Virus record (IMG/VR): IMGVR_UViG_3300006853_000185
Location: 1-26,447 of that record
Reading direction: 5' to 3' (one strand)
Origin: a virus
DNA: 26,447 bases
Below, piece after piece: positions 1,121 to 22,290 of this stretch; position 1 is the stretch's first letter; every line of letters begins with the position of its first letter. The position numbers and the translations under genes were made by a program. The notes below the pieces were generated by a model, which saw only the letters and a list, made by a program, of their open reading frames with translations, was not told where the DNA came from and ran no database searches.

Positions 1121-1845
1121 ACGAGCCGTGCGACGCGCTACCTATCGACGTCGGTCGCGGACTCAGCGAGCGGATCGCCGCGCTAGAGGCGATCCAGCTA
1201 GTTGGCGCCTTCTCTGACCCCGACTGGCTCGTCGAGAGGGCTCCCCAGCTGTCTCCCTACAGGGAGCCGTCCGGTGCGTTCTGGGGCGCGTACGGACGCC
1301 GGATCGGCTGGCAGATCCGCGACGCCGTCGCCAAGCTGCGTGCCGACCCGTGGACGCGCCAGGCCGTCGCCACTCTCTGGGATCCCATGTACGACAACTA
1401 CCCGGAGAAGCGTGACTATCCGTGCACCGTCGCGCTCGGCTTCACGCTGCAGCCGTCGTTCACCGATAGCCGGCTCAACATGCACGTCACGATGCGCTCA
1501 AACGACGCGTGGCTTGGACTACCGTATGACATGTTTCAGTTCACCCAGCTCTTCCAGACCGTCTGCCGCTGCCTGGACGTCCGACCCGGCACGTACACTC
1601 ACACCGCGTGGTCGCTGCACCTCTACGACCGAGACGTCGACCGCACGTACGACGTCGCGCTAGCCGGCGACACCGGCTACCGGTTTGACCCGACCGGTTT
1701 CGGTGAACCGAACATGTCGTTTACCGACGTCAGCCAGCGGGCGCACGTGATCGCGCTGACCCCGGACAAGATCGACTGGGAGCTGACGCCGAGCGAGAGG
1801 TGGTACCGTGACGCTATCCATGGTAATTCGACCCAGCTGGCATGA
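985..1845 (+). CDS. ThyA-superfamily enzyme, probable dCMP hydroxymethylase or thymidylate synthase
   Basis: The 286-residue protein follows the thymidylate synthase fold throughout: E68 (in LEAIQLVG), FWGAYGRR, DYPC with catalytic Cys147, RSND (171-174), LGLPYD (177-182) and HLY (212-214). Compared with E. coli ThyA the nucleophile, phosphate-binding Arg-Ser and His/Tyr pair are kept. The residue equivalent to Asn177 is Asp182. In this superfamily Asn selects dUMP, and Asp is typical of dCMP-using enzymes such as T4 gp42, so dCMP hydroxymethylase is the favoured reading. An ordinary ThyA making dTMP is the alternative. The GTG start at 985 has a GAGAGG ribosome site about 11 bases upstream. 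It overlaps the preceding kinase gene by 136 nt and the following dCMP deaminase by 38 nt. The family call is very secure; substrate specificity is inferred from one key residue. Confidence 0.88.
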   Translation: MATVIHARDGRTAYVDVITKLRLFGVSRPSRNGPTRDLGHTTIILDEPCDALPIDVGRGLSERIAALEAIQLVGAFSDPDWLVERAPQLSPYREPSGAFWGAYGRRIGWQIRDAVAKLRADPWTRQAVATLWDPMYDNYPEKRDYPCTVALGFTLQPSFTDSRLNMHVTMRSNDAWLGLPYDMFQFTQLFQTVCRCLDVRPGTYTHTAWSLHLYDRDVDRTYDVALAGDTGYRFDPTGFGEPNMSFTDVSQRAHVIALTPDKIDWELTPSERWYRDAIHGNSTQLA

Positions 1846-2305
1846 AGTGCGGCTGGCGATGGCCGCCGAGCTGGCCAAGCGCAGCCTATGCAGCCGTGAC
1901 CAGGTCGGCGCGGTGGTTGTCGACAAGTACAACAAGATCATCGGTGAGGGCTACAACGGCCCGCCGCGTGGCTTCTGGCACGGTGGAGAGCCGTGTAACA
2001 AGTGGTGCCAGCGTACGATGAACTTTAAGCTCGCGGGTGACGATGGACTTCATACAACGTATGATGACTGTCCGTCGCTGCACGCCGAGGCCAACGCCCT
2101 GTTGCAGGCCGACCGCTCACTATGCCTCGGTGGCACCATCTTCGTGACGAGCCACATCTGCATGGGCTGTGCTAAGCTCATCGCCAACTCCGGCCTGGGA
2201 CTGCTGGTCGTTCGGTCCGTTGTCAAGGATCACCGACGCTCGGAAGAGGTCTACAACTTCCTGCGCGACTGCAAGATCGAGCTGGGTATCTGGGAGGACA
2301 GGTGA
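1808..2305 (+). CDS. deoxycytidylate (dCMP) deaminase
   Basis: A 165-residue zinc-dependent cytidine/deoxycytidylate deaminase. The catalytic HAE is at 92-94 (SLHAEANAL), and the second zinc motif is CMGC (118-121). The usual Pro of PCxxC is Ile here (ICMGC). C63 and C67, in EPCNKWC, match the accessory structural zinc site of T4-like dCMP deaminases. It converts dCMP to dUMP, feeding thymidylate synthesis and lowering the dCMP/dCTP pool. The GTG start at 1808 lies inside the end of the ThyA-like gene, just behind a GAGAGG ribosome site. Its stop overlaps the polymerase start as GTGA, so the three genes are probably translationally coupled. Next to a ThyA-like enzyme with a dCMP-type active site, it would either compete for or balance the same substrate. 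Confidence 0.93.
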   Translation: MTLSMVIRPSWHEVRLAMAAELAKRSLCSRDQVGAVVVDKYNKIIGEGYNGPPRGFWHGGEPCNKWCQRTMNFKLAGDDGLHTTYDDCPSLHAEANALLQADRSLCLGGTIFVTSHICMGCAKLIANSGLGLLVVRSVVKDHRRSEEVYNFLRDCKIELGIWEDR

Positions 2306-4107
2306 CCGGTACCGGGGTACTTGACCGCGTCAAGCTTCACTACATCGAGTCGTTCGACGACGTCCAGGCGTACATCGACTGGTTCTCCAACAAGGTTTAT
2401 GATGACCCGATCGCCGTCGACACCGAGTCGACCGGCTTCTACTGGCACCGTGATGACTACGTCCGGATGGTCCAGGTCGGTGACGAAGTCGACGGCTGGG
2501 CAATGCGCTGGGACCGATTCTCGGGCCTGTTCGAGGCGACGATCGCCGCACACGAGGGTCCGATCGACCTGATGAACGCCAAGTTCGACTACGCGTTCCT
2601 GCGCAAGGCCGGCGTCAAGCTTAGGCAGCCGCTGATCCGCGACGTCGGTGTCATGTCGTACGTTCTCGAGCCGCACATGTCACGCGCGCTCAAGAACCAG
2701 GCCAAGCGGCACGTCGACCCGCGCGCCGGCGCGCTCCAGTGGCAGCTCGACGAGGCGATCGGTGGTCGCAGCGAGTGGACGTGGGCGACGATCCCGCACG
2801 ACTTTCCGCTGTACTGGCAGTACGCCGCGATGGACCCGGTGCTGACCGCTCTGATCCGTGAGCACCACTGGCCGCTCGTTCAGGAGCGCGCGCCGCGCGC
2901 CTATGAGATCGAGAACGAGTTCCAGTGGGTCGCGCTTAAGGCCGAGACGTACGGCGTCTGCATCGACGTCGACTACGCGGATCGGCACTACTCCAAGTTC
3001 ACCGCGTACTGCGAGGACGTCGAGCGATGGTGTGAGAGTGAGTACGGCGTCAAGCCGGGCAGCAACCAGGCCATCGTGCGCAAGCTGGTCGAGCTTGGTT
3101 TCAGTGAAGATCACTACTTCTCTAAGTCAACCGCCAAGGGCGCGGTCGCGCTCGACTCTAGCGTCCTAGAAGTCATCGATCACCCGCTCGCGCAGGCGGT
3201 TCTCCAGCGGCGGCAGCTGCAGAAGATCGCATCAACGTACCTGCGGTTCTACGTCGGTCACGTCGACTCGAACTCGCTGATTCACCCGTCGATCAACACC
3301 GTCGGCGCGCTGACCGGCCGGATGACCGTCTCGGAGCCCAACCTGCAGAACCTGCCGGTCCGCGGCACCAACCCAGCGCACAGGGTCGTCCGCAACTGCG
3401 TCGTCGCGCGGCCCGGTCACACGCTTATCATGGTCGACTTCGACCAGGTCGAGATGCGCGGACTGGCGATCGACTCCGGCGACGCCGGTTTGATCGCGGC
3501 GTTCCAGACCGACGAGGACTTCTTCGTCTCGATCGCGCGCCAGGTCTACGACGATCCGACGCTGGTCAAGGCGGACCCGCGCCGGCAGCCGGTTAAGAAC
3601 GGCATGTACGCCCGGATCTACGGCGCCGGGCTGGTCAAACAGGCCGCCACGGCCGGCGTGTCCGTCGAGCAGATGCGCTATGTCAACACGTCGCTGAACC
3701 TCAAGTTCCCGGGCATCGAGTCGTACGCGCGCGGCATCATCGACCAGGCGATCCGCGACGGTCGCAACGAGGGCGGACTGGCGTTCACGACCTGCTCGCT
3801 GACCGGCCAGCGTCACTACGCCGAGCGCGGCAAGGAGTACGCGCTGGTCAACTACAAGATCCAGGGGTGGGCCGCCAAGCTGTTGAAGCTCAAGGCGCTC
3901 GAGTTAGACGCGGCCGGTCTCGGTGACTACATCATCGCGTTCATCCATGACGAAATCATCTTTGACATGCCGAATGACCTGGTCCGTGACGCGGTGCACA
4001 CCATTCAAAAGATCATGAACGACACGACGATGTTCCCCGTCGCGATCACGGCCAGCGTCTCGACGGGGCAGCGGTGGGGAGAGAAGAAAGAGTGGAGTGA
4101 AGATTAA
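2302..4107 (+). CDS. DNA polymerase I (family A) with 3'-5' exonuclease domain
   Basis: A 601-residue replicative-type family A polymerase lacking the 5' nuclease domain. The DEDDy proofreading exonuclease is intact: D40/E42 (VDTES), N92-D96 (NAKFD) and Y174..D178 (YAAMD). The polymerase core has motif A at 379-386 (DFDQVEMR), motif B with K432, Y436 and Y440-G441 (KNGMYARIYG), and motif C HDE at 549-551. Tyr436 occupies the position of Phe762 of E. coli Pol I, as in T7 polymerase, so discrimination against dideoxynucleotides should be weak. The GTG start overlaps the dCMP deaminase stop by 4 nt, and the stop overlaps the next ATG (TAATG). It is the presumed main replication polymerase, acting with the helicase, SSB-like and nuclease genes downstream. 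Confidence 0.96.
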   Translation: MTGTGVLDRVKLHYIESFDDVQAYIDWFSNKVYDDPIAVDTESTGFYWHRDDYVRMVQVGDEVDGWAMRWDRFSGLFEATIAAHEGPIDLMNAKFDYAFLRKAGVKLRQPLIRDVGVMSYVLEPHMSRALKNQAKRHVDPRAGALQWQLDEAIGGRSEWTWATIPHDFPLYWQYAAMDPVLTALIREHHWPLVQERAPRAYEIENEFQWVALKAETYGVCIDVDYADRHYSKFTAYCEDVERWCESEYGVKPGSNQAIVRKLVELGFSEDHYFSKSTAKGAVALDSSVLEVIDHPLAQAVLQRRQLQKIASTYLRFYVGHVDSNSLIHPSINTVGALTGRMTVSEPNLQNLPVRGTNPAHRVVRNCVVARPGHTLIMVDFDQVEMRGLAIDSGDAGLIAAFQTDEDFFVSIARQVYDDPTLVKADPRRQPVKNGMYARIYGAGLVKQAATAGVSVEQMRYVNTSLNLKFPGIESYARGIIDQAIRDGRNEGGLAFTTCSLTGQRHYAERGKEYALVNYKIQGWAAKLLKLKALELDAAGLGDYIIAFIHDEIIFDMPNDLVRDAVHTIQKIMNDTTMFPVAITASVSTGQRWGEKKEWSED

Positions 4108-4852: not shown

Positions 4853-5026
4853 TTGACGACACCGATAGGTGAAGAGCCGGAGATCGACGCGCACCAGTTC
4901 TGCAGCGTCGACTGCCCGTGCGGTCACTGGAGCGAGTACCGCCGCCGGGCGACGACCCGCGCGGACGGCCGACGCGGCAAGCCGAACCTCGACGTCATCG
5001 AGGAGAACCGCGATGCCGCACGCTGA
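4853..5026 (+). CDS. Small Cys-rich protein, 57 aa
   Basis: A TTG-started reading frame of 57 residues behind a strong AGAGGAG ribosome site (about 4840-4846). Near the middle it has a compact putative metal knuckle, C17-x3-C21-x-C23-x-H25, followed by an Arg-rich stretch and an acidic end. The start of the helicase gene overlaps its last 14 nt, which suggests translational coupling. In the other frame this region gives only a Ser/Arg/Thr-rich peptide, which supports this frame as the coding one. No family was recognised. A DNA- or protein-binding accessory to the helicase is only a guess. Confidence 0.65.
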   Translation: MTTPIGEEPEIDAHQFCSVDCPCGHWSEYRRRATTRADGRRGKPNLDVIEENRDAAR

Positions 5027-6884
5027 CGTCATCGAAGACCGGATCTTCGTCCAGACCGAGTGGAACGAGCGTGACCTAGTCAAGCTCATTCCCGGCGCAC
5101 GATGGCACACCGAGCGCAAGCTGTGGCACGTTCCGCTGACATGGGTCGCGTGCCTGCAGCTGCGCGGCGTCTTCAGGGAGCGGCTGACCGTCGGCAGCGC
5201 GCTCATCGAGTGGTCTACCGGTGTCTTTCTCGACCGGATAGAACCGGCGCAAATGCTGCGCAGTCTCAGTAAACCACACTCTTATGACGAGCGTGACCTG
5301 TTGCGCGCGTTCCAGCGCGCCGGCGTGGACTTTATGTCCGTTGCCGGTTCGTGCCTACTCGGTGACGATACGGGGCTCGGTAAGACGGTCCAGACGCTGG
5401 AGCTGTTCTCAGTCCTGCGCGTGACGGGAAACGGTCTACCGGCGCTTATCATCTGTCCAAAGTCCCTGAAGGTCAACTGGGCACGCGAGGCCGAGACGTG
5501 GCTTCCGCTAGCCAACACGTACGTGATTAGCGGCGGAGCCGTCCAGCGGCACAGGCAGCTGGTCGCGGCGTCGAAGGACCGCAACGCGCTTGTGATGGTT
5601 TCGTACGACACGCTACGCAGCCACTCGCGCCTAGCGCCGTACGGCTCGATCCGCCTGCGCCGGTGCCGTGAGTGTGGCGGCGTCGGTGAGCACGAGGTAC
5701 CGGCGTCACGCTGTGAGGTCCACCTCGGTGAGCTCAACTGGATCAAGTTCAAGACCGTCGTCCTTGACGAGGCGCACCGGATCAAGGATCCCGCGTCGAA
5801 GCAGACGCGCGCCGCCTGGGCCGTCGGTCACATGCCGCACGTTGAGCGCCGGTTCGCGCTGACCGGCACACCGATTGGTGACGCGGTTGACGACCTGTGG
5901 TCAATCATGCACTTCCTGGCACCGGACGAGCATCCCGTCCGCTCAACGTTCGTCGACCGCTACGCGCTGACGTCGTGGGGAACCTACGGCGGCATCGAGA
6001 TCTCGGGGCTCAATCCTGACACTCGGCGGGAGTTCTACGACGTCATCGAGCCGCGATTTCGTCGGATGCCCAAGGCGCTAGTCCTCGACCAGCTGCCGCC
6101 GGTCGTCCGCAGCCGGCGATACGTCGAGCTGTCTCCCAAGCAGCGCAGGGCGTACAGCGACATCGCCTACGGCAAGGAGAACGGCTACGCGCTGGTCACT
6201 AAGCTGCCCGACGGCAACATCCTCGTGGCACCAAGCGACCTGGAGACGCAGCTGCGCCTGATGCAGTTCTCCAGCGCCACGATGAAGCAAATTGGGATCG
6301 ACGAGAAGACCGGCAAGCCGAAGTTCGAGATGTGTGAACCGTCCTCCAAGATCGACGCGCTGGAGGAGTTCATCGGCGAATACGGCAACCGCCAGCTCGC
6401 GGTCTGCGCCGAGCACCGCCAGCTGATCAATTTAGCGGCGCACCGGCTCGACAAGATCGGGATTAAGTACAGCCTGGTCGTTGGTGGGCAGCGGGACTTC
6501 GAGCGCGACTCGGCGCTGCGTCAGGCCGTCAAGGGCGACGTCCAGGTGCTGCTGTTCACAATTCGCGCCGGCGGCGAGGGTCTGACGATGACGTTTACCG
6601 ACACGCTCGCGTTTCTCCAGCGGTCATGGTCAATGCTAGCCAACCTGCAGACCGAGGGCCGGATCAACCGGATCGGCGCCGAGAAGCACGACTCGCTCAA
6701 CTACGTCGATTTCATCGCGGACACCGACGCCGAGCAGGTCCAGCTGACCCGGCTGTATCAGCGGCTCGAGCGGCTCGAAGAGATCACGCGTGACCGCGAG
6801 ACGCTGCGCGCCGCCGGCGTCGACGTCCGCGCGCTCGACGCCGAGGAGCAGCAGATCCTCGCCGGAAACCTGGGGGTGCTGTAG
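5013..6884 (+). CDS. SNF2-family DNA helicase/translocase
   Basis: A superfamily 2 SNF2-type ATPase of 623 residues. The N-terminal ~60 residues (GARWHTERKLWHVP) resemble the HARP-like region of SMARCAL1-type annealing helicases. Motif I is GDDTGLGKT (117-125), motif II DEAH (252-255), motif III LTGTP (283-287) and motif VI QTEGRINRIG (546-555). A likely zinc knuckle is inserted before DEAH (C218, C221, C234, H237). ATG 5013, behind GAGGAG, is chosen as start. Upstream in-frame codons from 4869 encode a low-complexity peptide in the wrong frame of the preceding small gene. Likely roles are fork remodelling or strand annealing during replication and recombination. Confidence 0.92.
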   Translation: MPHADVIEDRIFVQTEWNERDLVKLIPGARWHTERKLWHVPLTWVACLQLRGVFRERLTVGSALIEWSTGVFLDRIEPAQMLRSLSKPHSYDERDLLRAFQRAGVDFMSVAGSCLLGDDTGLGKTVQTLELFSVLRVTGNGLPALIICPKSLKVNWAREAETWLPLANTYVISGGAVQRHRQLVAASKDRNALVMVSYDTLRSHSRLAPYGSIRLRRCRECGGVGEHEVPASRCEVHLGELNWIKFKTVVLDEAHRIKDPASKQTRAAWAVGHMPHVERRFALTGTPIGDAVDDLWSIMHFLAPDEHPVRSTFVDRYALTSWGTYGGIEISGLNPDTRREFYDVIEPRFRRMPKALVLDQLPPVVRSRRYVELSPKQRRAYSDIAYGKENGYALVTKLPDGNILVAPSDLETQLRLMQFSSATMKQIGIDEKTGKPKFEMCEPSSKIDALEEFIGEYGNRQLAVCAEHRQLINLAAHRLDKIGIKYSLVVGGQRDFERDSALRQAVKGDVQVLLFTIRAGGEGLTMTFTDTLAFLQRSWSMLANLQTEGRINRIGAEKHDSLNYVDFIADTDAEQVQLTRLYQRLERLEEITRDRETLRAAGVDVRALDAEEQQILAGNLGVL

Positions 6885-9554: not shown

Positions 9555-10820
9555 GTGAAGAGACGAATCGGCTACGCCAAGCTCGGCCGCTCGATGCCGC
9601 TGCAGCTCGGTGACTGTGGCTCTAACGGCGGTGACGTTGAGATGATTCCGACGCTCCAGCTGCTCGCCGAGCGTCACCCAGACGTCGAGTTCGTTATCAT
9701 CGGTCGCAACTCCGGTGAGGAGCCGGCGCGCGTCGGCCTACCTGCCAACATCACCAATCCGTGGACCGGTTGGTGGCCCAAGATCCGCGCTGAGATGAAC
9801 GCAGCGAAGCTGAATCATCCGGCTCTAAGCGTCGACGAGCACCTACGACTTGCCGAGATCTTTGACCGGTACACACGCGACGCCTTTGTGCTGCTTGACG
9901 GCGTTGTTATGTGGCTTGGCCAGCACGGCACAACACACACTCCGCTGCCGTCAATTAAAGATCGCAGCGTCTTGACCAAACCATATGACTCATTGTCACT
10001 CTACGGCGGCTACCTGCTGCGCGGGATCAACGCGTGGCGCGACGTCGATCCGCATAATCGTGAGGAGGTGCTGCTCAACCCAGACCCGCGCAACGTGCCA
10101 AAGTACCGGGACGGCCGGTATCCGTGGCGGCACGCCGTCTTGAGCCAGCACGACCAGGTAAACGCGATTAAGCACGAGGAGGGTGACCGGGTCGTTTCGT
10201 CGACGGTTCTCAGCGTCTACTCGCGCCTGGAGATCTCGGGTCTGCTCCCTAGTACGCCGTTCACCAACCTCATTAAGTTCAATGACGACCACAACCGACC
10301 GCACGACTTCGGCATCGTGTTCAATGAGACACGGCGTGACGTCGCGCTCGAGAAGTCACGACGTTACATCCTAGAGAAGTGGGTGTTCCCGCTGTCTCCC
10401 GGCTTTATCTACGGACAATGGAGCGACGCAACTCGGCGGCAGCTCGGCATCCGGATTGAACCGATCGACGTGCTGAACTACTTCAGTACGATCCAGACCA
10501 CGCGCTGCACGTTGACGACCCCGTCATCTGGCTCCGGCTGGGCGACTGCCAAACCGTGGGAGTGCTTCGCCGCCGGCGTGGTCTGCTTCTTTCACCCAGC
10601 GTACGACGACCAGAACCACATACTCAACGACGCACCCTACGCGCTTGCGTCGTGGCTGCGCGTCCGTCACCCGATTGACCTACGTGACCGGATCCGCTAC
10701 ATGCGAGACAACCCAGAGTATTGGCAGGAAATCGTTCGGCTTCAACGCAATCACTACCTAAAAGCTATCGACGAGCTCAGCTACCTAACAAAGATCGAAC
10801 AGAGACTGGGACTGGACTAA
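9555..10820 (+). CDS. GT-B-like glycosyltransferase (possible DNA-base glycosyltransferase)
   Basis: 421 residues. The N-terminal half has a Rossmann-like layout (VEFVIIGRNSGEE near 48-60). The C-terminal half contains GSGWATAKPWECFAAG (326-341), which resembles the donor-binding 'K..E..A.G' segment of GT-B glycosyltransferases. The closing helices (RDRIRYMRDNPEYW) are also typical of that fold. A GTG start follows GAGAGGAGAGAGAAG. Its stop overlaps the ATG of a sugar nucleotidyltransferase (TAATG), so the sugar donor and transfer enzymes are probably co-expressed. Together with a dCMP-type ThyA homolog in the same early direction, glycosylation of modified DNA bases is a reasonable hypothesis. 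Another acceptor cannot be excluded. Confidence 0.68.
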   Translation: MKRRIGYAKLGRSMPLQLGDCGSNGGDVEMIPTLQLLAERHPDVEFVIIGRNSGEEPARVGLPANITNPWTGWWPKIRAEMNAAKLNHPALSVDEHLRLAEIFDRYTRDAFVLLDGVVMWLGQHGTTHTPLPSIKDRSVLTKPYDSLSLYGGYLLRGINAWRDVDPHNREEVLLNPDPRNVPKYRDGRYPWRHAVLSQHDQVNAIKHEEGDRVVSSTVLSVYSRLEISGLLPSTPFTNLIKFNDDHNRPHDFGIVFNETRRDVALEKSRRYILEKWVFPLSPGFIYGQWSDATRRQLGIRIEPIDVLNYFSTIQTTRCTLTTPSSGSGWATAKPWECFAAGVVCFFHPAYDDQNHILNDAPYALASWLRVRHPIDLRDRIRYMRDNPEYWQEIVRLQRNHYLKAIDELSYLTKIEQRLGLD

Positions 10821-11506
10821 TGGACGCGATAATCCTCGCCGGCGGGCGCGGCACCCGCGTCATGGAGCTGGCTCCCGAGTTCCACAAGCCGCTGCTGCCA
10901 GTCAACGGCGTCCCGATGGTGACGCTGGCCGTCGACCTGGCGCTGCGCGCCGGCGTCACGTGTCCCGTCGTCGTGGCCGCGCCCGCCAACACCGAGGCGA
11001 TCTGCGGCGCACTGGACGGCCGACCCGCGTTCGTCGTCATCCAGCGCCAGCCGCTCGGCGCCGGCCACGCGCTGCTGCTCGGGCTGCAGGCCAGTCCGCG
11101 CCCGCTCGTCGACTGCGATCGGGTGCTCGTGCTACTCAGTGACAACGTCTCGACGGACACCGACGTCACCGCGGTGATGCAACACCCAACCGCGATCGGG
11201 ATCCAGTACATCGAGCGGGTCAACGCGTTTCGCTTCGCGCGGCTGAACGACGACGGCCGCTGGTGCGAAAAGGAACGCCTCAAGCTTGACGGTCCGCCCG
11301 TAGCGTGTTGGGTTGGACCGTTCATCGGCTGGCGCAACCGAATGGTGCGGGTGCTTGCCGAGGCGGTCGCCGCGCGCAAGCCGAATGAAGAGGTCTACGT
11401 CGGACCCCACCTCGGTAACTTCATGTACAGCGAGACGAAGTGTCCCCTCGTGCCGGTCGACTCGCTCGACCTGGGCGTGACGGACGAGTACCGGAGGTTA
11501 ACATGA
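10820..11506 (+). CDS. Sugar-1-phosphate nucleotidyltransferase
   Basis: A 228-residue NTP-transferase of the RmlA/GlmU N-domain type. The signature LAGGRGTR is at 6-13, KPLLPV at 23-28, a metal-binding Asp in LLSDN near 108-112, and an LGAGHAL nucleotide-loop segment near 78-84. It would form an NDP-sugar from NTP and a sugar-1-phosphate. ATG 10820 is chosen because it begins MDAIILAGG, exactly where this family starts, and overlaps the glycosyltransferase stop by one base. An upstream in-frame start at 10721 would add residues out of phase with the preceding gene. It is the likely source of the activated sugar used by the adjacent glycosyltransferase and perhaps by the later glycan cassette. 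Confidence 0.9.
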   Translation: MDAIILAGGRGTRVMELAPEFHKPLLPVNGVPMVTLAVDLALRAGVTCPVVVAAPANTEAICGALDGRPAFVVIQRQPLGAGHALLLGLQASPRPLVDCDRVLVLLSDNVSTDTDVTAVMQHPTAIGIQYIERVNAFRFARLNDDGRWCEKERLKLDGPPVACWVGPFIGWRNRMVRVLAEAVAARKPNEEVYVGPHLGNFMYSETKCPLVPVDSLDLGVTDEYRRLT

Positions 11507-11646
11507 ATGAAAACGAGACTGAAGAGATGAACGACGGTAAAATGAACTGGCCGGCCGCGGTCGTCAACGTCGTACTTATCCTGGCCGTCGTCGCGATCGT
11601 ATTCATTATCTGCGGCAACGACATCTTGAAGGGCTGGCTGACGTGA
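11503..11646 (+). CDS. Single-pass membrane microprotein, 47 aa
   Basis: An ATG start overlapping the nucleotidyltransferase stop (ATGA), with a clear GGAGG ribosome site at 11493-11497. The first 15 residues are acidic (MNENETEEMNDGK), followed by one hydrophobic helix (about 17-38) and a short tail. A topology with the acidic N-terminus on one side of the membrane is expected. The stop overlaps the next gene by 4 nt. No family was recognised; it may be an accessory membrane protein of the operon. Confidence 0.65.
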   Translation: MNENETEEMNDGKMNWPAAVVNVVLILAVVAIVFIICGNDILKGWLT

Positions 11647-12317
11647 CAACTGACAAACTGGAGCACCTGATCCGCATGCAGCTCAACCTGCAACGTGAAT
11701 TTGGCTTCAACTTCGACACGATGCCACACGATGAGCAAATCGCGTACATCCGCGACCACCACCAGGCTGTTATCATGGAAATGTCTGAGGTGCTCAATGA
11801 AGTTGACTGGAAACCCTGGACGGTCAACCCCCAGCGGATCATTCACCGCGATGAGTACGTCGCCGAGCTCGTTGACGTCCTCCACTTTTGGATCAACATG
11901 ATTCTGGTAGTCAGCGGCAAGATGACGACCACCGAAATCGCGGACGAGATCTTCACCCGCTACGCGCTGAAGAACCGCGTCAATACCCACCGGCAGCTCG
12001 ACGGCTACGACGGCCGCTCAACCAAGTGCGCCGGCTGCGGTCGCGCGCTGGACGACGTCGCCGTCCGGTGCTGGCGACGCGGCGACCAAGGACGCTGCGA
12101 ACGCGACAACGTCGACATCAACTACGTCATAAGCGAGGGTCGCGACGTCGCCGCCATGCTTGAGATGTCACACGATGTCAACACCATCGATCCGGTCTGT
12201 TCTCACTGCAACCAAGAACTCAACAAACACGGCTGCGTCCCGGCGACGTCCGAGCGGTGGGGACACTGTGGCGCCGGTCAGCGGAACCTGCCGCCGATCA
12301 AGCTGCCGGTTACGTGA
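11643..12317 (+). CDS. All-alpha NTP pyrophosphatase (dimeric dUTPase/dCTPase type) with zinc-ribbon extension
   Basis: 224 residues. The N-terminal ~120 carry the metal-binding helices of dUTPase_2/MazG-like enzymes: E46..E49 (EMSEV), WKPW, E75..D78 (ELVDVLHF), then YALKNRVNTHRQ and GY. T4 dCTPase gp56 belongs to the same superfamily, so dUTP and/or dCTP hydrolysis to the monophosphate is predicted. The C-terminal part has two Cys clusters (C129, C132, C143, C152 and C186, C189, C198) that look like zinc ribbons. Such an extension is unusual for the family. The GTG start overlaps the previous stop. Its TGA is in the same frame as the following methyltransferase, five codons before that gene's GTG. 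Confidence 0.85.
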   Translation: MTTDKLEHLIRMQLNLQREFGFNFDTMPHDEQIAYIRDHHQAVIMEMSEVLNEVDWKPWTVNPQRIIHRDEYVAELVDVLHFWINMILVVSGKMTTTEIADEIFTRYALKNRVNTHRQLDGYDGRSTKCAGCGRALDDVAVRCWRRGDQGRCERDNVDINYVISEGRDVAAMLEMSHDVNTIDPVCSHCNQELNKHGCVPATSERWGHCGAGQRNLPPIKLPVT

Positions 12318-12329
12318 TACGGTTCCTCC

Positions 12330-13844
12330 GTGACGTATACGGCGATCGACTGCATGGGATTCGCCGGTGGCTTTACGCTCGGCGTCGTCCAAGCTGGCTT
12401 TAAGCTGATCGGCAAGCGCGAGAAGAAGGGCGGCTTCGGCGCCAAGAACTGCGAGGTCAATCGACACCTACTCGGTGACGGCTGGCAGACCGAGGCGTGT
12501 GATCCCAGCGAGTGGAGCGTCCCAGACGGGGGCGCTTCACTCGTCTTTGGTAACCCACCGTGTTCCGGCTTCTCGGTCCTAACGGATGAACGGTTCCGCG
12601 GCGCCGACTCGGCGATCAACCAGTGTATGTGGGACTTCGTCGAGTACGCCGGCCGCGTTAAGCCAGACATCGCGATCTTCGAGTCCGTCCAGCAGGCGTA
12701 TGGCCAGGGACGCGGCCTGATGCGCGCCTTACGCATTCGTCTAGACGGTCTTACCGGTGAACGCTACACGCTCTACCACGTGCTGCACAACGCGCTGTCC
12801 GTCGGCGGACCAGCGATGCGCAAGCGCTACTTCTGGGTCGCATCGCGGGTGCCATTCGGCGTCGACTGGCCCGAGATCAGTCGTACTCCCGTCCTAGAAG
12901 ACGTCATCGGTGACCTGCAGACTCTCGACCAGCGGTGGGACTCCCAGCGGTACTGGCTCGATCCGACGTGGTACTCACACCGGTTTCGTGACCGCTACGC
13001 CGACGGCTCATACTGGGTTGACGGCCACGTCTCGCTAGACGTCCCGTCGGTCCGCCGGACGCTCGACCTGCGAGACGGCGTCGAGTGGAATCCCGGCGAG
13101 TATATTCACACCGTTATGCGCCGGTACTTTGACACCCACGCTGACCTACCGCAGAGCTGGCACCACAAGCTAGATCAGCTCAAAAACCGCGACTTCCAGA
13201 TCGGTTTCACCGTTCCGATGATGTGGCGACCCGACCGACACGCACGTGTCGTCACCGGTGGGACTATGCTGCTCGGCGTCCACTGGGCCGAGCGCCGGAC
13301 GTTCACGCACCGTGAAGTTGCACGGATCATCGGTTTTCCAGACTCGTGGTTGATCGAACCGCTGCGAGGCACATCCGGATTGTTTATGACGTGGGGCAAG
13401 GGCATCACCGTCGACTGCGGTCGGTGGATCGCCAGCTGGGCGCGCCGGACGCTGGACGGTCAACCGGGCGCGCTGACCGGTGAGGAGATTGGCGCTGACG
13501 AGCGGCTAATTGACGTGACAAACGCCTGGAAGATGGCTTGTGGTACAGTCAAACTTGAACTTAACGCTAGGTGGAGGGAAGATATAGTGACTGAGACGGT
13601 TGAATCGCCGGTCGACGAGACGGCCAAGGGACGGCCACGCTCGGCCGAGACGGTCGAACGTGACCAGCGGGTCTTCGACACGCTGGCATCCGCCGGCATG
13701 ACTCGCACGGAACTGGCGGTGCAGCTGGACGTTCCGCCGAACCTGGTTTACCTAAGCCTGTGGCGCCTCAAGCGTGACTCGCGCGTCGAGCGCGTTCGGC
13801 ACGAGGGTAACTGGGTCTGGCAGCGCGTCGCCGGCGCGGTCTAG
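12330..13844 (+). CDS. Cytosine-C5 DNA methyltransferase with C-terminal winged-helix domain
   Basis: 504 residues. C5-MTase motifs occur in order: motif I CMGFAGGF (8-15), motif IV GNPPCSG with nucleophile C78, a motif VI variant FESV (117-120, normally ENV), motif VIII MRKRYFW (163-169), and late motifs HREVARIIGFPDSW and GKGITVDCGRW. Residues from about 440 (RTELAVQLDVPPN...SLWRLKRD) form a helix-turn-helix/winged-helix module not usual in this family. It probably protects phage DNA from host restriction. GTG 12330 is the only start that keeps motif I; it lacks a clear ribosome site, suggesting translation coupled to the upstream gene. A second start (13587) within it may give a separate protein. 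Confidence 0.9.
   Translation: MTYTAIDCMGFAGGFTLGVVQAGFKLIGKREKKGGFGAKNCEVNRHLLGDGWQTEACDPSEWSVPDGGASLVFGNPPCSGFSVLTDERFRGADSAINQCMWDFVEYAGRVKPDIAIFESVQQAYGQGRGLMRALRIRLDGLTGERYTLYHVLHNALSVGGPAMRKRYFWVASRVPFGVDWPEISRTPVLEDVIGDLQTLDQRWDSQRYWLDPTWYSHRFRDRYADGSYWVDGHVSLDVPSVRRTLDLRDGVEWNPGEYIHTVMRRYFDTHADLPQSWHHKLDQLKNRDFQIGFTVPMMWRPDRHARVVTGGTMLLGVHWAERRTFTHREVARIIGFPDSWLIEPLRGTSGLFMTWGKGITVDCGRWIASWARRTLDGQPGALTGEEIGADERLIDVTNAWKMACGTVKLELNARWREDIVTETVESPVDETAKGRPRSAETVERDQRVFDTLASAGMTRTELAVQLDVPPNLVYLSLWRLKRDSRVERVRHEGNWVWQRVAGAV
13587..13844 (+). CDS. Nested in-frame winged-helix protein, 85 aa (internal start in the methyltransferase gene)
   Basis: Inside the methyltransferase reading frame, a GTG at 13587 (codon 420) is preceded by GGAGGG at 13573-13578, eight bases away. 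This is a better ribosome site than the methyltransferase itself has. Upstream lies a possible extended -10, TGG-TACAGT (13541-13549). The product would be a free 85-residue protein: an acidic/basic linker, then a helix-turn-helix (MTRTELAVQLDVPPN), a second helix and a wing ending near WVWQRV. It could regulate the operon. The full-length fusion remains equally possible, since no stop separates the two. Confidence 0.5.
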   Translation: MTETVESPVDETAKGRPRSAETVERDQRVFDTLASAGMTRTELAVQLDVPPNLVYLSLWRLKRDSRVERVRHEGNWVWQRVAGAV

Positions 13845-16655: not shown

Positions 16656-16831
16656 TGATGCAGATTCGATTTGACCTCGTCAAGACGGCGTACGCGCTGA
16701 TTTGGACCGAGGGCGGCCGCGGCCCGTTCGCGGTGATGAGTAAGATAGAGTTCAGCAGGTTTCTCGAGACCTACGACGCGCGCAACATCAAGACCTACGT
16801 GTTCATCAGTATGAAGGGAGAAGAGCGATGA
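16655..16831 (+). CDS. Small hypothetical protein, 58 aa
   Basis: A GTG (16655) or ATG (16658) start behind GAGGAG at 16641-16646; both are in frame and differ by one residue. The 58-residue protein is a compact alpha/beta-like sequence (MQIRFDLVKTAYALIW... FSRFLETYD... KTYVFISMK) without Cys. Its stop overlaps the following DUF932 gene by 4 nt. No family was recognised. Confidence 0.65.
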   Translation: MMQIRFDLVKTAYALIWTEGGRGPFAVMSKIEFSRFLETYDARNIKTYVFISMKGEER

Positions 16832-17793
16832 GTGAAGAGCAGAGCACCCAGTTCAGCGTCCGTGAGGCGCCGTGGTTCAAACTCGGCAAGCTGGTCGACG
16901 AGCCGGTAACGGCCAAGGAGGCCGCAGAGCTTGGCGGACTCAACTTTGACGTTGAACTGCAAGAGGTCGGCACGTTCAAACGCGACGACAGCGGAAACAT
17001 CTATCATACAAGTGTCGCACCGATCGACAAGCGCCGTGCCGTCGTTGCCGTAGACAACGGCCAATTCATGGGATTCGTCTCGGCCAAAAAGTACACATCC
17101 CTCCAGTACGCGGACGCGTTCAACTTCATGGACACGATCAACCCGCGCTACGTCGCCGCGGGCACGCTACGTGACCGCCGGCAGGGCTTTATGGTCGTCA
17201 AGCCGGAGATCCAGCTTAACGTCCTGGACGGTGAGGATCCGCACGAGCTGTTCGCCGTGCTGCGGACGAGCCACGACTGCACCCGCGCCGTCGAGGTATC
17301 GGTGATGCCGCTGCGCGGACGCTGTATGAACCAGTTGACGCTCCGCAGCTTCGCCAAGGGTGTGCCACACCGCTGGTCGATCAAGCACACGACGACGCTG
17401 AACGCCAAGCTCGCGGAGGCAAAGAGCTCGCTGCAGCGTATCGGTATCTACGTCAAGCGCTACGAGCAGCTCGCACAACGTGTGGCGGATATAAACATCA
17501 GTGAGATGCAGGCGCGCGAGCTGCTGCAGATCTCGATCCCGCGACCGGCTAAGAGGACTGAGCGCATCGACCAGCAGTACCAGGACCGCATCAACGCCAT
17601 GATAGATCTGTGGCAGACATCGCCAACGGTGGCCTACGCGGGTACCGGTTGGGGCCTGGTCAACGCCGTCTCCGAGTACTACGACTGGTACCGGTCGGGC
17701 GGAACTCCCGAGTCCCGCTTCCTCAACGCGCTGGAGGGACAGACCCACAAGATCGTTAACAAGGTGGCGGGTCTCGTTCTGTCCGCCGCGTAG
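16828..17793 (+). CDS. DUF932 / phage-plasmid-like protein (TIGR03299 type)
   Basis: A 321-residue protein with the layout of the DUF932 family: PWFKLGKLV near 15-23 (usually PWHGLG), an EAAELGGLNFDVE segment, an RAVVAVDNGQFMGFVSAKKYTSLQ stretch in the position of the 'LG.V..Y...QN' motif, and a conserved DAFNFMD. DUF932 proteins are common in actinophages and plasmids and have no settled function. A role linked to DNA metabolism or takeover of host functions is often assumed. ATG start behind GAAGGGAGAAG. It is followed 10 nt later by the WhiB gene on the same transcript. Confidence 0.85.
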   Translation: MSEEQSTQFSVREAPWFKLGKLVDEPVTAKEAAELGGLNFDVELQEVGTFKRDDSGNIYHTSVAPIDKRRAVVAVDNGQFMGFVSAKKYTSLQYADAFNFMDTINPRYVAAGTLRDRRQGFMVVKPEIQLNVLDGEDPHELFAVLRTSHDCTRAVEVSVMPLRGRCMNQLTLRSFAKGVPHRWSIKHTTTLNAKLAEAKSSLQRIGIYVKRYEQLAQRVADINISEMQARELLQISIPRPAKRTERIDQQYQDRINAMIDLWQTSPTVAYAGTGWGLVNAVSEYYDWYRSGGTPESRFLNALEGQTHKIVNKVAGLVLSAA

Positions 17794-17803
17794 GGGAGGT
17801 CAG

Positions 17804-18127
17804 GTGTGGATCCTAGACGTGCCCCACTGGATGCTACGGGGTCGCTGCCGCGGAGCCAACCCAGAGATCTTTGACGGTGATCCGCTCTATGAGGAGACCG
17901 CCAAGGGCTTCTGCGCCCGGTGCGTCGTACGTACCGAGTGTCTGAACTACGCCCTCGAACACGGCAGCGCCGTCATCGGAGTCTGGGGCGGACTTAGTGA
18001 AGATGAACGCAACGCCCACCGGCGTGGCGGTCCGCGTCTCTCGTGTCCCGGTTGCCGCACGACGTTACACTTCAGCGACGGCCGAACCGAGATCTGTCTC
18101 AGCTGCGGACTGACGTGGAAGTCTTAA
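17804..18127 (+). CDS. WhiB-family Fe-S transcription regulator with extra zinc ribbon
   Basis: 107 residues. The four WhiB cluster Cys are C15, C37, C40 and C46, followed by the GVWGG turn (59-63) and a basic segment (HRRGGPR). WhiB-like proteins carry a 4Fe-4S cluster and act with the host main sigma factor, and phage versions can redirect host transcription. After the WhiB core there is a second four-Cys ribbon, C81, C84, C98 and C101 (CPGC...CLSC), not part of the standard fold. GTG start behind GGGGAGG. Its presence strongly supports an actinobacterial host. It is the last plus-strand gene before the convergent terminator. Confidence 0.93.
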   Translation: MWILDVPHWMLRGRCRGANPEIFDGDPLYEETAKGFCARCVVRTECLNYALEHGSAVIGVWGGLSEDERNAHRRGGPRLSCPGCRTTLHFSDGRTEICLSCGLTWKS

Positions 18128-18203: not shown

Positions 18204-19277
18204 CTACGTGCCGCTTGTTTCGCGTTCTAGCGTAACCGCGCGCGTCCACGCGTCCAGCCAGCGCCACGCGTTGCGCTCGATGGTCAGCTTGGCGGCGGCG
18301 TCTCGGCCGGCTAGCGCGCTCTCGGTGCGGCGGTCCGCGCTCTTAACCAAGCTATGAACGTACTTTCGCCACTCATGTGAATTTTTTGCGAGCAGACCGA
18401 CGCCAAGACGCGCCAAGCGAGAGTACTCAGCGCGCGGTGACATGACGCACGGAACGCCGACCGCCGCGTACTCCAGCGGCTTAAGCCATGACTTAGCGGC
18501 GTTAAACTTAGAGTCCGCCAGCGGCGCGACCCCGATACCGATCGTGTTAACCGCCAGGGGCCACGCGTTGATGTCCCTTATGACGTCCGTCGTGTCGATC
18601 GTGTAGCGCGTCGAGACGCCCAGCGCGGTATGAACGCCCGCCAGCGGGCCGGCGACACGGAACTGGCAGCCAAGCTGCAGCAGCTGCGCCATAGAGGGTC
18701 CCATAACCTGCAGGTCGGTCGGGTGTGAGTGCACCGAGCCAGCCCAACCGATGACGTTAGAGTCGGTATGTTCGATCTTCAGGTAGCGCTCGGGAACGCA
18801 GTTGCGCAGAATGTGTACCGGGGTCTTGGCGCCGTAGCGCGTCGCTAGCGCGTCGGTCGAGACCGTCACCAGTGACGCCGCGTCGCAGGCGAGCAGCGTG
18901 TTTTGCCACGAGTGTACCGCGTTGGGCCCGCTGGGATGCAGCGCGTGGAACGCTGGATTGGCCGGGTGGATGCACGTTAAGTCATCATCCATGTCGACGA
19001 CGACGGCGGTACCCGCGTTGCGGATGATCGGTATCGCCTGCACCAGGTACCGGTGCGTGACGCGTTGGAACACGATGACGTCCGCGTCCTGCGGAATCCG
19101 GACCTGGACAACGTGATCACCGTCGAGCTTGGCCTGCAGCATCTGGTCACGTTCCTGTGACGTGACGATCACGACGTCATGTCCCTGGCGCTGCAGCTCA
19201 CGCGCTGGCCAGATCAGCCGGTAGTAGCCGCAGCCGGTGGTGTCGGCCGGAAAGATGTAGATCTTCACCGGATCCAC
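18204..19277 (-). CDS. GT-B (GT4-type) glycosyltransferase
   Basis: 357 residues with a two-Rossmann layout: an N-terminal TTGCGYYRLIWPARELQRQGH acceptor-side motif, IGWAGS (176-181) opening the second domain, and the donor-binding stretch from GIGVAPLADSKFN (247-259) to LKPLEYAAVGVP (265-276), typical of group 1/GT4 enzymes with its conserved Glu. GTG start at 19277, overlapping a 33-aa membrane frame by 13 nt. It is the last gene of the minus-strand cassette behind the tail genes. It may act on a glycan attached to virion proteins, or less likely on DNA or host surface material. Confidence 0.85.
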   Translation of the reverse strand: MDPVKIYIFPADTTGCGYYRLIWPARELQRQGHDVVIVTSQERDQMLQAKLDGDHVVQVRIPQDADVIVFQRVTHRYLVQAIPIIRNAGTAVVVDMDDDLTCIHPANPAFHALHPSGPNAVHSWQNTLLACDAASLVTVSTDALATRYGAKTPVHILRNCVPERYLKIEHTDSNVIGWAGSVHSHPTDLQVMGPSMAQLLQLGCQFRVAGPLAGVHTALGVSTRYTIDTTDVIRDINAWPLAVNTIGIGVAPLADSKFNAAKSWLKPLEYAAVGVPCVMSPRAEYSRLARLGVGLLAKNSHEWRKYVHSLVKSADRRTESALAGRDAAAKLTIERNAWRWLDAWTRAVTLERETSGT

Positions 19278-19366
19278 CGGACCTCATCATAGTCGACGTA
19301 CCACATGCAGTAGCTGAGATAGAAGATCCATAAGCCAAGCAAGGCATCATACAGCAGTCTTACCAC
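19265..19366 (-). CDS. Membrane microprotein, 33 aa
   Basis: Between two glycosyltransferase genes, a GTG frame begins inside the stop region of the upstream gene (7-nt overlap), with GGAAGG 8 bases before it, and overlaps the next gene by 13 nt. The 33 residues contain one aromatic-rich hydrophobic helix (LLYDALLGLWIFYLSYCMWY) and a charged end. Its fit into an otherwise empty 82-nt gap supports it. Function unknown; it could anchor the glycosylation enzymes. Confidence 0.5.
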   Translation of the reverse strand: MVRLLYDALLGLWIFYLSYCMWYVDYDEVRWIR

Positions 19367-19962
19367 CGGTCCGGCCTTCCGCTCGTGTTGTTACCATGGT
19401 GGTGCCAGACCCAGGTCACCTCAGGAACGTGCAGAAACGCCGCGCCAACCCCCAGCAGCCGCAGATAGAAGCCCCAGTCGTCATAGTCGCTGTCCGGTGA
19501 CGTGGCCGGCGGACCGAACAGCGCCTGCTTGGCCAGGTTGGCGTGCACGAGAGACGTCACCGGTATGTATGACTTCTGACGCAGCAGGTCAGCGTCGAAC
19601 GGCTGACCGAAGCGTCCCCACTCCTCGCGCTGCGGAAGTATCTCGCCCCGCGCGTCGACCACGCGGCAGCCGGAATAGACCACAGTGGCACCGGACCGCA
19701 GCGCGTGATGCAGCAGGATCGTAAGGTGATCCGGTAGAAGCTCATCATCGTCGTCGAGAAACGCGACCCACGTCGTTGATATGTGATACAGCGCCCGGTT
19801 GCGCGTCAGCGCCGAGCCGTCGTGTCGCTTGTCGAACGAGATGACGACGTTCTCCGGCTGGTGAGTCTGCGCCGCGACGCTCGTGACCGCGCGCGTCAGC
19901 TCGAACCGACGCGTCGGGATATGCGGTATGATGACGGTTACCCTGTCCACAGCTGTCCCCAT
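19360..19962 (-). CDS. GT-A glycosyltransferase, family 2 type
   Basis: 200 residues. A VTVIIPHIPTRR start, an ALTRNRAL segment and the metal/nucleotide-binding acidic cluster FLDDDDE (70-73) define a GT2-type enzyme. DYDDWGFYLRLL provides the later acidic motif. The ending HHHGNNTSGRPDRW closely resembles the ending of the next gene upstream (20000 region), marking the two as paralogs. The ATG at 19962 has only a weak ribosome site. GTG 19950, with GGGGACA before it, is an alternative that removes four residues. Confidence 0.82.
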   Translation of the reverse strand: MGTAVDRVTVIIPHIPTRRFELTRAVTSVAAQTHQPENVVISFDKRHDGSALTRNRALYHISTTWVAFLDDDDELLPDHLTILLHHALRSGATVVYSGCRVVDARGEILPQREEWGRFGQPFDADLLRQKSYIPVTSLVHANLAKQALFGPPATSPDSDYDDWGFYLRLLGVGAAFLHVPEVTWVWHHHGNNTSGRPDRW

Positions 19963-19973
19963 TCAGTAACCCG

Positions 19974-20552
19974 TCACTGCCACCTGGTTGGCAGTCCGCT
20001 GGTGTGATGTCCGTGCAGCCGGTAGTGCCAGGTAATCTCACCGGTGCCGGCAAACTTCGCGCTGATGTTCATACACCGCAGGATGAACATCCAGTCCTCT
20101 CCCATCCAGTCTTGGTGAAGCGGACCATCCGGCATGAGAAAACCGGCCTCCTTGGCGATTCGCGTTCGTACCATGACATTCATCGTCGTGTGATGTGGCT
20201 CAGTGGGATTGAACTGCCGGCCGCGATGCATCGGAAACGGGTTGTTGCCGTCGAACCACGAGTACAGGAAGTCGGCACCGGTATCATGTTGAAGGTTCAA
20301 CAGCGTCTCAACGTGGTGCGGATACCAGAGGTCGTCGTCATCGAGAAAGGCAACCCACTCGGTCTGTACGGCGTCCAACGCCCGCTGACGGGTCCGCGCC
20401 GCACCCTCGTGATTACAGTCCAGCGCGACGGAGATGCCACCGTGCAGCGTCACCGTCTGCGCCTGCACCGAGCTGACGGCCTCTGACAGGAGGTTGCCGA
20501 CGCGCGGCGGAATGGCCGCGATCGCTGCCGTGACGTCTACCGTCTTCTTCAC
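19974..20552 (-). CDS. GT-A glycosyltransferase, family 2 type (paralog of neighbour)
   Basis: 192 residues with the same plan as the gene that follows it: an N-terminal strand, ARTRQRALDAVQTEWVAFLDDDD (acidic cluster 71-74), a GEDWMFILRC motif and a closing HGHHTSGLPTRWQ. The GTG start overlaps the stop of the upstream methyltransferase gene as GTGA. The pair probably arose by tandem duplication and may add successive sugars. Acceptor and donor are unknown. Location behind tail genes suggests a late, virion-related substrate. Confidence 0.82.
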   Translation of the reverse strand: MKKTVDVTAAIAAIPPRVGNLLSEAVSSVQAQTVTLHGGISVALDCNHEGAARTRQRALDAVQTEWVAFLDDDDLWYPHHVETLLNLQHDTGADFLYSWFDGNNPFPMHRGRQFNPTEPHHTTMNVMVRTRIAKEAGFLMPDGPLHQDWMGEDWMFILRCMNISAKFAGTGEITWHYRLHGHHTSGLPTRWQ

Positions 20553-21067
20553 TTAGCCAGAGCTCCCACGGCACACTGCCACTTGGGGCGCGCGTCAGCG
20601 ACCGGCCAAAGCAGCTTGACTTCATCCATATTCATCGGCACGACGCTCGACCAGCCCGCGTCTTCCAGCAGCTCAACGAGTCGCGTCTCGGTACACTCCC
20701 ACAGGTGAACGTCGCCAGCCCACCGGCCAGCGCCGAAGCGCAGCGAATCTAGCGTCGCGCCGTACTCGTCCGACCCGGTCTCACCGAGCAGCTCGCGGCC
20801 GCGGTCGACGTCCGGTCCAACGATCATGATCGCGCCGTTAATGACCATACAGTCGCGCAGCCGTGACAGCAGCGTCCACGCGTCTGCACGCGTCAGGTGC
20901 TCTAGGACGTGTCCCGCGTAGACGCACTCGACGCTACCCGTCGGCCACGGCAGCTCACCGGTCAGGTCGACACGCTGGTCAGCGCGGTGCGGCATTTCAG
21001 GTAGGTCGACGTTGAGCCAGCCGTTTGCGTAGCGGTCGCCGCAGCCTAGGTTAAGTTGCACGCTCAT
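20549..21067 (-). CDS. SAM-dependent methyltransferase
   Basis: A 172-residue class I methyltransferase with motif I LNLGCGDR (5-12), NVDLPEM as the acidic strand-2 end, VYAGHVLEHL as the post-motif helix (typical of Methyltransf_11/8-like small-molecule and sugar O-methyltransferases), and a C-terminal CTETRLVELLEDAGW segment. ATG with a perfect AGGAGG ribosome site. It lies between a sugar C-methyltransferase-type gene and two glycosyltransferases, so methylation of a sugar or glycan-linked group is the likely role. Confidence 0.82.
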   Translation of the reverse strand: MSVQLNLGCGDRYANGWLNVDLPEMPHRADQRVDLTGELPWPTGSVECVYAGHVLEHLTRADAWTLLSRLRDCMVINGAIMIVGPDVDRGRELLGETGSDEYGATLDSLRFGAGRWAGDVHLWECTETRLVELLEDAGWSSVVPMNMDEVKLLWPVADARPKWQCAVGALAK

Positions 21068-21072
21068 ACCTC

Positions 21073-22290
21073 CTACAGCAGGGTCGGCGCGGGAATCGGT
21101 AGGATCCAGTGGCCGCCGTCGATCGTGAACTGCTGCTCATTACGCATGATTGAACCGGCGTAGTTCCACGCGAGTAGCAGGTAGGTGTCAGTAATCTCAT
21201 GATCGACGACGGTCTGGTTGTAGATCTTTATTCCCGTTCCCGGAATGTAGCGCTCCTGCTTCGCTTCAGTCGTATCGGTGACGTAGCGTAGCAGCTCACC
21301 GTCGATGCCACAGAAGTTAAGCAGCGTCGTCGCCTTGGCCGGCGCGCCGTATCCAACAACTGCGTGACCGGCGTCACGTTCGTCAAGCAGCAGCTGCAGA
21401 AGCCGTTGTTTGAGCCGCTCAGCACGCCCCTGGAGCCCGAGGTAGACGTTCGTGTCCGTTAACCAGGCTTCAGAGCTGACGACGCTGGAGACTCGTCTAG
21501 AGACCTGACTCTGCCGGCGCAGCTTGACACGCAACGAGCCACCCTGTCGGTCAGTAAGCTGCGCGTCAACGACGTACAAGCCGTGGTTACGCGCCGCAGA
21601 GCGCAGACTGGTCAGCGAGAAGAAGTTGCGATGCTCGTGGTAGACCAGGTCGAACGCGTTATTGAGGATCAAGTCAGGTAGGTACTGCACCTCGACATAC
21701 ACGGTACCCTTGAACGCCAGCAACTCATCGATACCGGCGAAGACGTCAGAGACGCTCTCGACGTGCGCCAAGACATGGTTCGCGATGATGACGTCTGCGG
21801 GCCCGTGCTGCGCGTGAATCTCGTGTGCCAGGTTGCGGCCGAATGGCTTGACGACCGTCTCGACGCCGCGCTGCGCGGCGACCTCAGCCGGTCCGTCAGC
21901 TGGATCAACTCCAATGACACGCCAGCCCGCGCGCAAGAGCAAGTGTGAGAAATCACCGTCGTTTGACCCGATCTCAACTACGAGCGGCTTGCGTGCCAGT
22001 CCGCTGTCGCTTAGATTCCACTCGTTAAGAACGTCGCTGGCGTAGCGCGCATGATAGAGCGACAGCGGCTTGGATGCACTTGAGTAGAACGAGTAGCCCG
22101 AGCCGAATAGGTCCGGCACCACCTCGAGCAGCTGAACCAGGTGGCAGCCGGCGCAGACCGCCAGCTGCAGCGGGTAGTGCGTCACCGTCTCGTTGTCCTT
22201 GGTGTAGTTGTCCGCGATCGGCGACAGTCCCAAGTCAAGAACCAGGCGCAAGTCGTCGTAGTTGCACGCGCTGCAGCGCGTTCTCTTCAT
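21073..22290 (-). CDS. Sugar C-methyltransferase-type protein (zinc-binding, SAM-dependent)
   Basis: A 405-residue three-part protein: an N-terminal zinc module with CSAC (6-9) and a second CAGC pair in LGLSPIADNYT context, a central SAM domain with VVEIGSNDGDFS, and a C-terminal domain with GYGAPAKATTLLNFCGI. This order (Methyltransf_13 / SAM / Methyltransf_14) is that of NDP-sugar C-methyltransferases of antibiotic deoxysugar pathways and related modification clusters. The ATG at 22290 overlaps the upstream stop (ATGA) and is preferred to GTG 22302. It suggests the phage glycan carries a branched or methylated sugar. Confidence 0.87.
   Translation of the reverse strand: MKRTRCSACNYDDLRLVLDLGLSPIADNYTKDNETVTHYPLQLAVCAGCHLVQLLEVVPDLFGSGYSFYSSASKPLSLYHARYASDVLNEWNLSDSGLARKPLVVEIGSNDGDFSHLLLRAGWRVIGVDPADGPAEVAAQRGVETVVKPFGRNLAHEIHAQHGPADVIIANHVLAHVESVSDVFAGIDELLAFKGTVYVEVQYLPDLILNNAFDLVYHEHRNFFSLTSLRSAARNHGLYVVDAQLTDRQGGSLRVKLRRQSQVSRRVSSVVSSEAWLTDTNVYLGLQGRAERLKQRLLQLLLDERDAGHAVVGYGAPAKATTLLNFCGIDGELLRYVTDTTEAKQERYIPGTGIKIYNQTVVDHEITDTYLLLAWNYAGSIMRNEQQFTIDGGHWILPIPAPTLL

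Follow-up and report, generated by a model that had tools for sequence, protein, structure and literature searches.

The window, the whole stretch of 26,447 bases analysed here, comes from an IMG/VR virus record. It carries a ThyA-superfamily gene (985-1845, +) with a GTG start, encoding a candidate dCMP 5-hydroxymethylase of 286 aa (Pfam PF00303, Thymidylat_synt, E 4.6e-17). The protein misses the NCBIfam ThyA cut-off by a wide margin (best 60.8 bits, 174.6 required). Asp182, within the motif MRSNDAWLGLPYD, has the codon GAC (1528-1530, +) and corresponds to ThyA Asn177 and T4 gp42 Asp179 in a MAFFT alignment, and to MilA Asp186 with HMMER. The same Asp is present in two independent metagenome contigs, whose proteins are 97% and 84% identical to that of the window, and thus is not a sequencing oddity.

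The first-pass annotation had described all other catalytic residues as intact. This is true of the core residues (Cys147, Glu68, Arg31, Arg125, Arg171, Ser172, Asp174, and His212 and Tyr214, which match ThyA His207 and Tyr209), but not beyond them: ThyA His147 is Thr148, Gln165 is Met170, Arg127 is Gln126, and Trp80 and the closing C-terminal tail are missing. The nucleophile Cys147 (ThyA Cys146) and Thr148 are encoded at 1423-1428 (+), and Met170, Arg171 and Ser172 at 1492-1500 (+), the last two being the phosphate-binding Arg166 and the deoxyribose-binding Ser167 of ThyA. Glu68 (1186-1188, +), Asp174 and Gly178 are the equivalents of ThyA Glu58, which activates folate, Asp169 and Gly173, all kept. 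The departures from ThyA are common to the clade of the window, and as sequence characters they support a cytosine-using enzyme.

Directly upstream is a P-loop nucleotide (thymidylate/dNMP) kinase-like frame (26-1120, +; phrog_761, E 3e-14), whose last 136 or so bases also form the start of the ThyA-like gene. Its long C-terminal region is conserved in most relatives, and a sequence search of the PDB with this part gave no match. Downstream are a dCMP deaminase (1808-2305, +; PF00383, E 1.9e-14; phrog_174, E 1e-35) and a family A DNA polymerase (2302-4107, +; PF00476, E 5.5e-58), followed by a RuvC-like gene, named from its homologue in phage DSL-LC01, an SNF2-like helicase, a PD-(D/E)XK nuclease and an AAA_24/RecA-like gene. 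Gene order was compared in those contigs, from the 53 non-redundant relatives described below, that are long enough to tell: the kinase is upstream in 48/48, the deaminase downstream in 49/49 and the polymerase in place in 48/48. Further along are a dUTPase_2/MazG-type pyrophosphohydrolase (11643-12317, +; PF08761, E 3.9e-12) and a DNA cytosine-5 methyltransferase with recognisable catalytic motifs (12330-13844, +; PF00145, E 5.4e-19); a methyltransferase of this kind is also found in DSL-LC01 (28014-29258). The pyrophosphohydrolase is a homologue of the T4 gp56 dCTPase-dUTPase, with which it shares phrog_173, phrog_18650 and phrog_12184 (BLASTP 44% over 48 aa, E 2e-8). A DUF932 protein (16828-17793) is also encoded, and a WhiB regulator (17804-18127) points to an actinobacterial host.

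Two genes between the replication genes and the pyrophosphohydrolase are candidates for sugar transfer and donor synthesis. The first (9555-10820, +) encodes a glycosyltransferase of GT-B fold that is uncharacterised by sequence: it is recognised by neither PHROGs nor NCBIfam, Pfam gives one sub-threshold match only, and a PDB sequence search with its profile gave no match. Its AlphaFold model (pLDDT 83, with low confidence in loops around 125-149) is nearest in fold to T4 DNA beta-glucosyltransferase (BGT), which accounts for all six best PDB matches in Foldseek (best E 1.5e-8, TM about 0.5-0.6; next fold 5e-6). "DNA beta-glucosyltransferase" is also the name of the BFVD match at rank 2 (E 1.8e-18), and HHalign (Prob 75%, P 2.4e-5) aligns the C-terminal 76 columns with BGT, a WE motif being common to both. 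The second gene (10817-11506, +) is sugar-1-phosphate nucleotidyltransferase-like and may encode the enzyme for an NDP-sugar donor (PF12804, E 6.7e-12; PF00483, E 2.3e-10); the NTP-transferase and sugar genes of RB69 were compared and are not close to those of the window. The glycosyltransferase family of the window is found in 18 of 34 eligible relatives and that of DSL-LC01 in 12 others (30/34 with either). This variation among relatives counts against the pathway proposed below, as does the possibility that several other glycosyltransferases of the window act on virion or surface glycans. On the minus strand, 18204-23611 holds several glycosyltransferases and two methyltransferases, one of them a C-methyltransferase with PF08484, PF13489 and PF08421, beside probable structural genes; the targets of this cluster may be glycans of the virion or host, and not DNA.

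To follow the Asp182 column across relatives, viral sequences were retrieved by peptide patterns in which column 177 is absent (MRS[NS]D.W. and D[YV]PCT...). All 53 relatives (90% non-redundant) carry Asp at this column and thus, as they were found without using it, the residue is not a chance substitution. Glu58 and Asp169 are likewise retained in the window and in all 53. The replacement of ThyA Asn177 by Asp182, as first annotated, is therefore borne out by the codon, by both alignments and by the relatives. In a larger set of 298 aligned sequences from several seeds, ThyA columns 147, 165 and 177 move together: 204 sequences have Thr/Met/Asp, 82 His/Gln/Asn and 10 Asn/Asn/Asn, with two exceptions (82, 43 and 6, respectively, at 75% identity). 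As the patterns of one seed held columns 147 and 165, and one T4-seed pattern held column 177, the 53/53 count is the cleanest single result on column 177.

Thr/Met/Asp is the triplet of the T4 dCMP hydroxymethylase gp42, and is that of the window (Thr148/Met170/Asp182). The window fits neither the ThyA triplet, His/Gln/Asn, nor Asn/Asn/Asn, which is found in dUMP hydroxymethylases (SPO1 and PaMx11 type); this last group rests on few sequences, since a query of SPO1 type found no relatives among viral contigs. A C-terminal tail ending in V or I is present in 82/82 ThyA-type sequences (a strict motif matches 68, and the others were assigned from their listed endings) and in 0/204 of Asp type. 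Trp80 is also present in all 82 ThyA-type sequences. An independent, published association study put positions 177 and 147 above all others in their linkage with modified phage DNA. Asp177 marks modified contigs there, and in MetaGPA the Asp177 contigs showed enrichment for modified cytosine (PMC8670742).

A phylogeny with ThyA and the dUMP and dCMP hydroxymethylases, which had been proposed as a check on the assignment, was carried out by maximum likelihood on 58 rows with columns 147, 165 and 177 masked. In this tree, the window falls within a clade of 26 rows that all carry Asp (support 100/99) and that includes Actinomycetia phage DSL-LC01 and the Gordonia phages Forza, Sixama, GMA2 and Phendrix. 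A second Asp-type clade holds Stenotrophomonas phage AXL3 and a third holds T4 gp42, which neighbours ThyA, with long branches; the dUMP hydroxymethylases fall into a single Asn/Asn/Asn clade. The starred branches imply that the Asp state changed at least twice, and a single shared origin of this state is therefore not established. What places the window with the T4 gp42 type is thus its residues and fold; the two are in separate clades, a point against the assignment. With the whole window as query, megablast against phages gave no match.

From its sequence characters, we consider it likely that 985-1845 encodes a folate-dependent dCMP 5-hydroxymethylase of an actinobacteriophage, feeding glycosylated 5-hydroxymethylcytosine DNA. 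Cytosine is indicated as the substrate because Asp177 occurs together with Thr147 and Met165, and this part of the original proposal is strengthened by the masked-column phylogeny, by published residue work and by gene context. The 5-substituted dCMP first suggested as the product is also supported, and can be narrowed by prediction to 5-hydroxymethyl-dCMP, the most likely product judging from the residues retained and lost.

An enzyme with Asp at this column could instead methylate dCMP at C5, an activity reported for phage Xp12. Such a dCMP 5-methylase would complete the reaction by hydride transfer to give 5-methyl-dCMP and, in turn, 5-methylcytosine DNA. The Xp12 enzyme is listed among TS-family enzymes (PMC5175136), and according to the part of PMC8670742 that cites Liu and Santi (1992), an Asn to Asp switch in ThyA mutants leads to 5-methyl-dCMP. 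The window, however, lacks both Trp80 and the C-terminal tail, and a BGT-fold glycosyltransferase, which would require a hydroxyl, is found in the same operon-like run; hydroxymethylation is therefore favoured over methylation, which appears unlikely here. Loss of Trp80 impairs hydride transfer, although T4 gp42 still has Trp at the position, which weakens this part of the argument. Cofactor binding in TS depends on the C-terminal tail, which the T4 dCMP hydroxymethylase is without (PMC6400193).

A dCMP 5-hydroxylase would yield 5-hydroxycytosine, then glycosylated through the C5 oxygen, as with the 5-hodCMP synthase of RB69 and other Mosigvirus phages. A recently reported branch of the family, found in RB69-like phages, makes 5-hydroxy-dCMP (PMC13390438), and claims of glycosylated 5-hydroxycytosine are cited within that paper. 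RB69 p048 is inferred to be the enzyme meant there, from its position and annotation. Two PDB entries represent this activity by their titles: 9iqc, a riboflavin-dependent monooxygenase with dCMP and FAD, and 9iqu, the dCMP hydroxylase AfhB of phage HY126. These enzymes belong to the same superfamily, share the TS fold and have Asp177, Thr147 and Met165 like the window, and 9iqu is its next best profile match after MilA, but MilA scores much higher (122 vs 91 bits). Moreover, RB69 p048 and Agrobacterium phage OLIVR5 have Phe/Asn/Val at Glu58/Asp169/Gly173, and AfhB aligns in the same register (HMMER), whereas the window has Glu68, Asp174 and Gly178. As these three residues are retained, hydroxymethylation is favoured over hydroxylation, and a hydroxylase, which makes 5-hydroxy-dCMP and is flavin-dependent by PDB title, was rejected as quite improbable. 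The OLIVR5 gene (4971-5735) is annotated as a deoxycytidylate 5-hydroxymethyltransferase, yet has Phe/Asn/Val like RB69 p048, and by these residues is probably a dCMP hydroxylase instead.

Thymidylate synthase is the name given to the homologues in the closest annotated phages, and the neighbouring dCMP deaminase could feed dUMP to an ordinary ThyA with a neutral substitution or to a dUMP hydroxymethylase. Both were rejected, and have very little probability, as the window has Asp/Thr/Met and neither His/Gln/Asn nor Asn/Asn/Asn; the C-terminal tail and the NCBIfam scores do not match either. The residue is decisive in T4 gp42, in which D179N lowers kcat up to about 3600-fold (PMC6400193). AXL3 gp28 is of the same enzyme type as the window in its triplet and folate residues, and has kinase, NTP-PPase and dCMP deaminase neighbours, although it lies in a different clade and is annotated as a thymidylate synthase. 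Its authors assumed that gp28 makes dTMP, but AXL3 also encodes ThyX, and AXL3 DNA resisted 35 of 37 restriction enzymes, being cut only by TasI and Tru1I, which have A/T-only sites (PMC7504290). Their reading of gp28 is not followed here. The restriction pattern fits modified cytosine, without identifying the base itself.

The nearest solved structure to the window is MilA, the CMP 5-hydroxymethylase of Streptomyces rimofaciens, both by profile (E 1.9e-34; best other 9.2e-25) and by fold, MilA accounting for the seven best PDB matches of the AlphaFold model (pLDDT 92) in Foldseek. It resembles the window in having Asp186, Thr and Met and in lacking Trp80. A MilA/BcmA-like cytidylate (CMP) hydroxymethylase with a ribonucleotide substrate was nonetheless rejected as highly unlikely, since MilA owes its CMP preference to Ala176 and Lys133 (PMC5175136), which in the window are Ser172 and Arg125 (Ser167 and Arg126 in ThyA numbering), the deoxyribose-preferring pair, and since MilA serves antibiotic synthesis whereas the context here is phage DNA metabolism.

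A dCMP 5-hydroxymethylase at 985-1845 would act as follows. Cys147 would attack C6 of dCMP, Asp182 would bind the cytosine ring at N3 and protonate it there, Glu68 would activate methylene-tetrahydrofolate, and the C5-methylene intermediate would be quenched by water, not reduced, to give 5-hydroxymethyl-dCMP. The gp56-like dCTPase/dUTPase would supply dCMP and remove dCTP, the adjoining kinase would phosphorylate 5-hydroxymethyl-dCMP, and the polymerase would put 5-hydroxymethyl-dC into phage DNA. A sugar could then be added by the BGT-fold glycosyltransferase, its donor possibly made by the adjacent nucleotidyltransferase. The kinase-like protein, deaminase, gp56-like protein, nucleotidyltransferase and BGT-fold glycosyltransferase of the window thereby appear, by homology and predicted fold, to complete a T4-like pathway. 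While residues, homologies, synteny and predicted folds are read from the sequence, the substrate, product and order of steps are proposed from them. Further observations count against the scheme. One is the DNA C5-methyltransferase in the same window, which would be of no use if all cytosine were substituted at C5; perhaps only part of the cytosine is substituted, or the methyltransferase acts elsewhere. Another is the Gln at the ThyA Arg127 position, which is shared by most of the clade. The BGT match, too, is that of a predicted model, with the TM values and low-confidence loops given above.

T4 is among the closest known systems. T4 gp42 has the nucleophilic Cys, Glu58, Asp169, Ser167 and Thr147/Met165/Asp177, and no ThyA C-terminal tail, and the T4 genome also encodes a kinase, a dCMP deaminase, the gp56 dCTPase/dUTPase and the BGT glucosyltransferase. 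However, gp42 is in a separate clade with about 26% identity to the window over 113 aa, and the family A polymerase and the adjacent kinase-TS-deaminase order of the window are unlike T4. The "thymidylate synthases" of DSL-LC01 and the Gordonia phages share the triplet of the window and the upstream kinase, at about 30-37% identity. DSL-LC01 is syntenic with the window through kinase, TS, deaminase, PolA, RuvC, helicase, nuclease, RecA, glycosyltransferase, MazG, C5-methyltransferase and WhiB, but its glycosyltransferase is of a different family and a UDP-galactopyranose mutase replaces the nucleotidyltransferase. This mutase (23963-25060) directly follows the glycosyltransferase syntenic with that of the window, and the DNA sugar of DSL-LC01 might therefore be galactofuranose. 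A similar gene logic is seen in Shewanella phage Thanatos, with a dCTP pyrophosphatase, a dCMP deaminase, a hydroxymethylase homologue, a glycosyltransferase candidate and a sugar pyrophosphorylase; LC-MS found sugar-modified cytosine in this phage, the sugar reportedly being attached without a hydroxymethyl group (PMC12838424).

A dCMP hydroxymethylase with downstream glycosylation is already known, and the window is a further member, in an actinophage lineage whose genes of this type are annotated as thymidylate synthase and, going by the literature searched, are uncharacterised. There is about an even chance that a large and widely sampled group of actinobacteriophage-like viruses, including cultured Gordonia phages, carries a complete, divergent pathway for 5-hydroxymethylcytosine glycosylation, in which the sugar would differ by lineage: a BGT-fold transferase with a nucleotidyltransferase in the window, another transferase family with UDP-galactopyranose mutase, possibly for galactofuranose, in the DSL-LC01 group. 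Glu58, Asp169 and Gly173 together with Asp177 are suggested as a simple rule to separate folate-type dCMP hydroxymethylases from dCMP hydroxylases. The assignment predicts that many actinobacteriophage "thymidylate synthase" genes make modified cytosine instead, and the cultured Gordonia phages allow a direct test. If true, it would provide a new family of candidate DNA glycosyltransferases, would help to explain restriction resistance, and would matter for any handling of these phages that relies on CRISPR or restriction.
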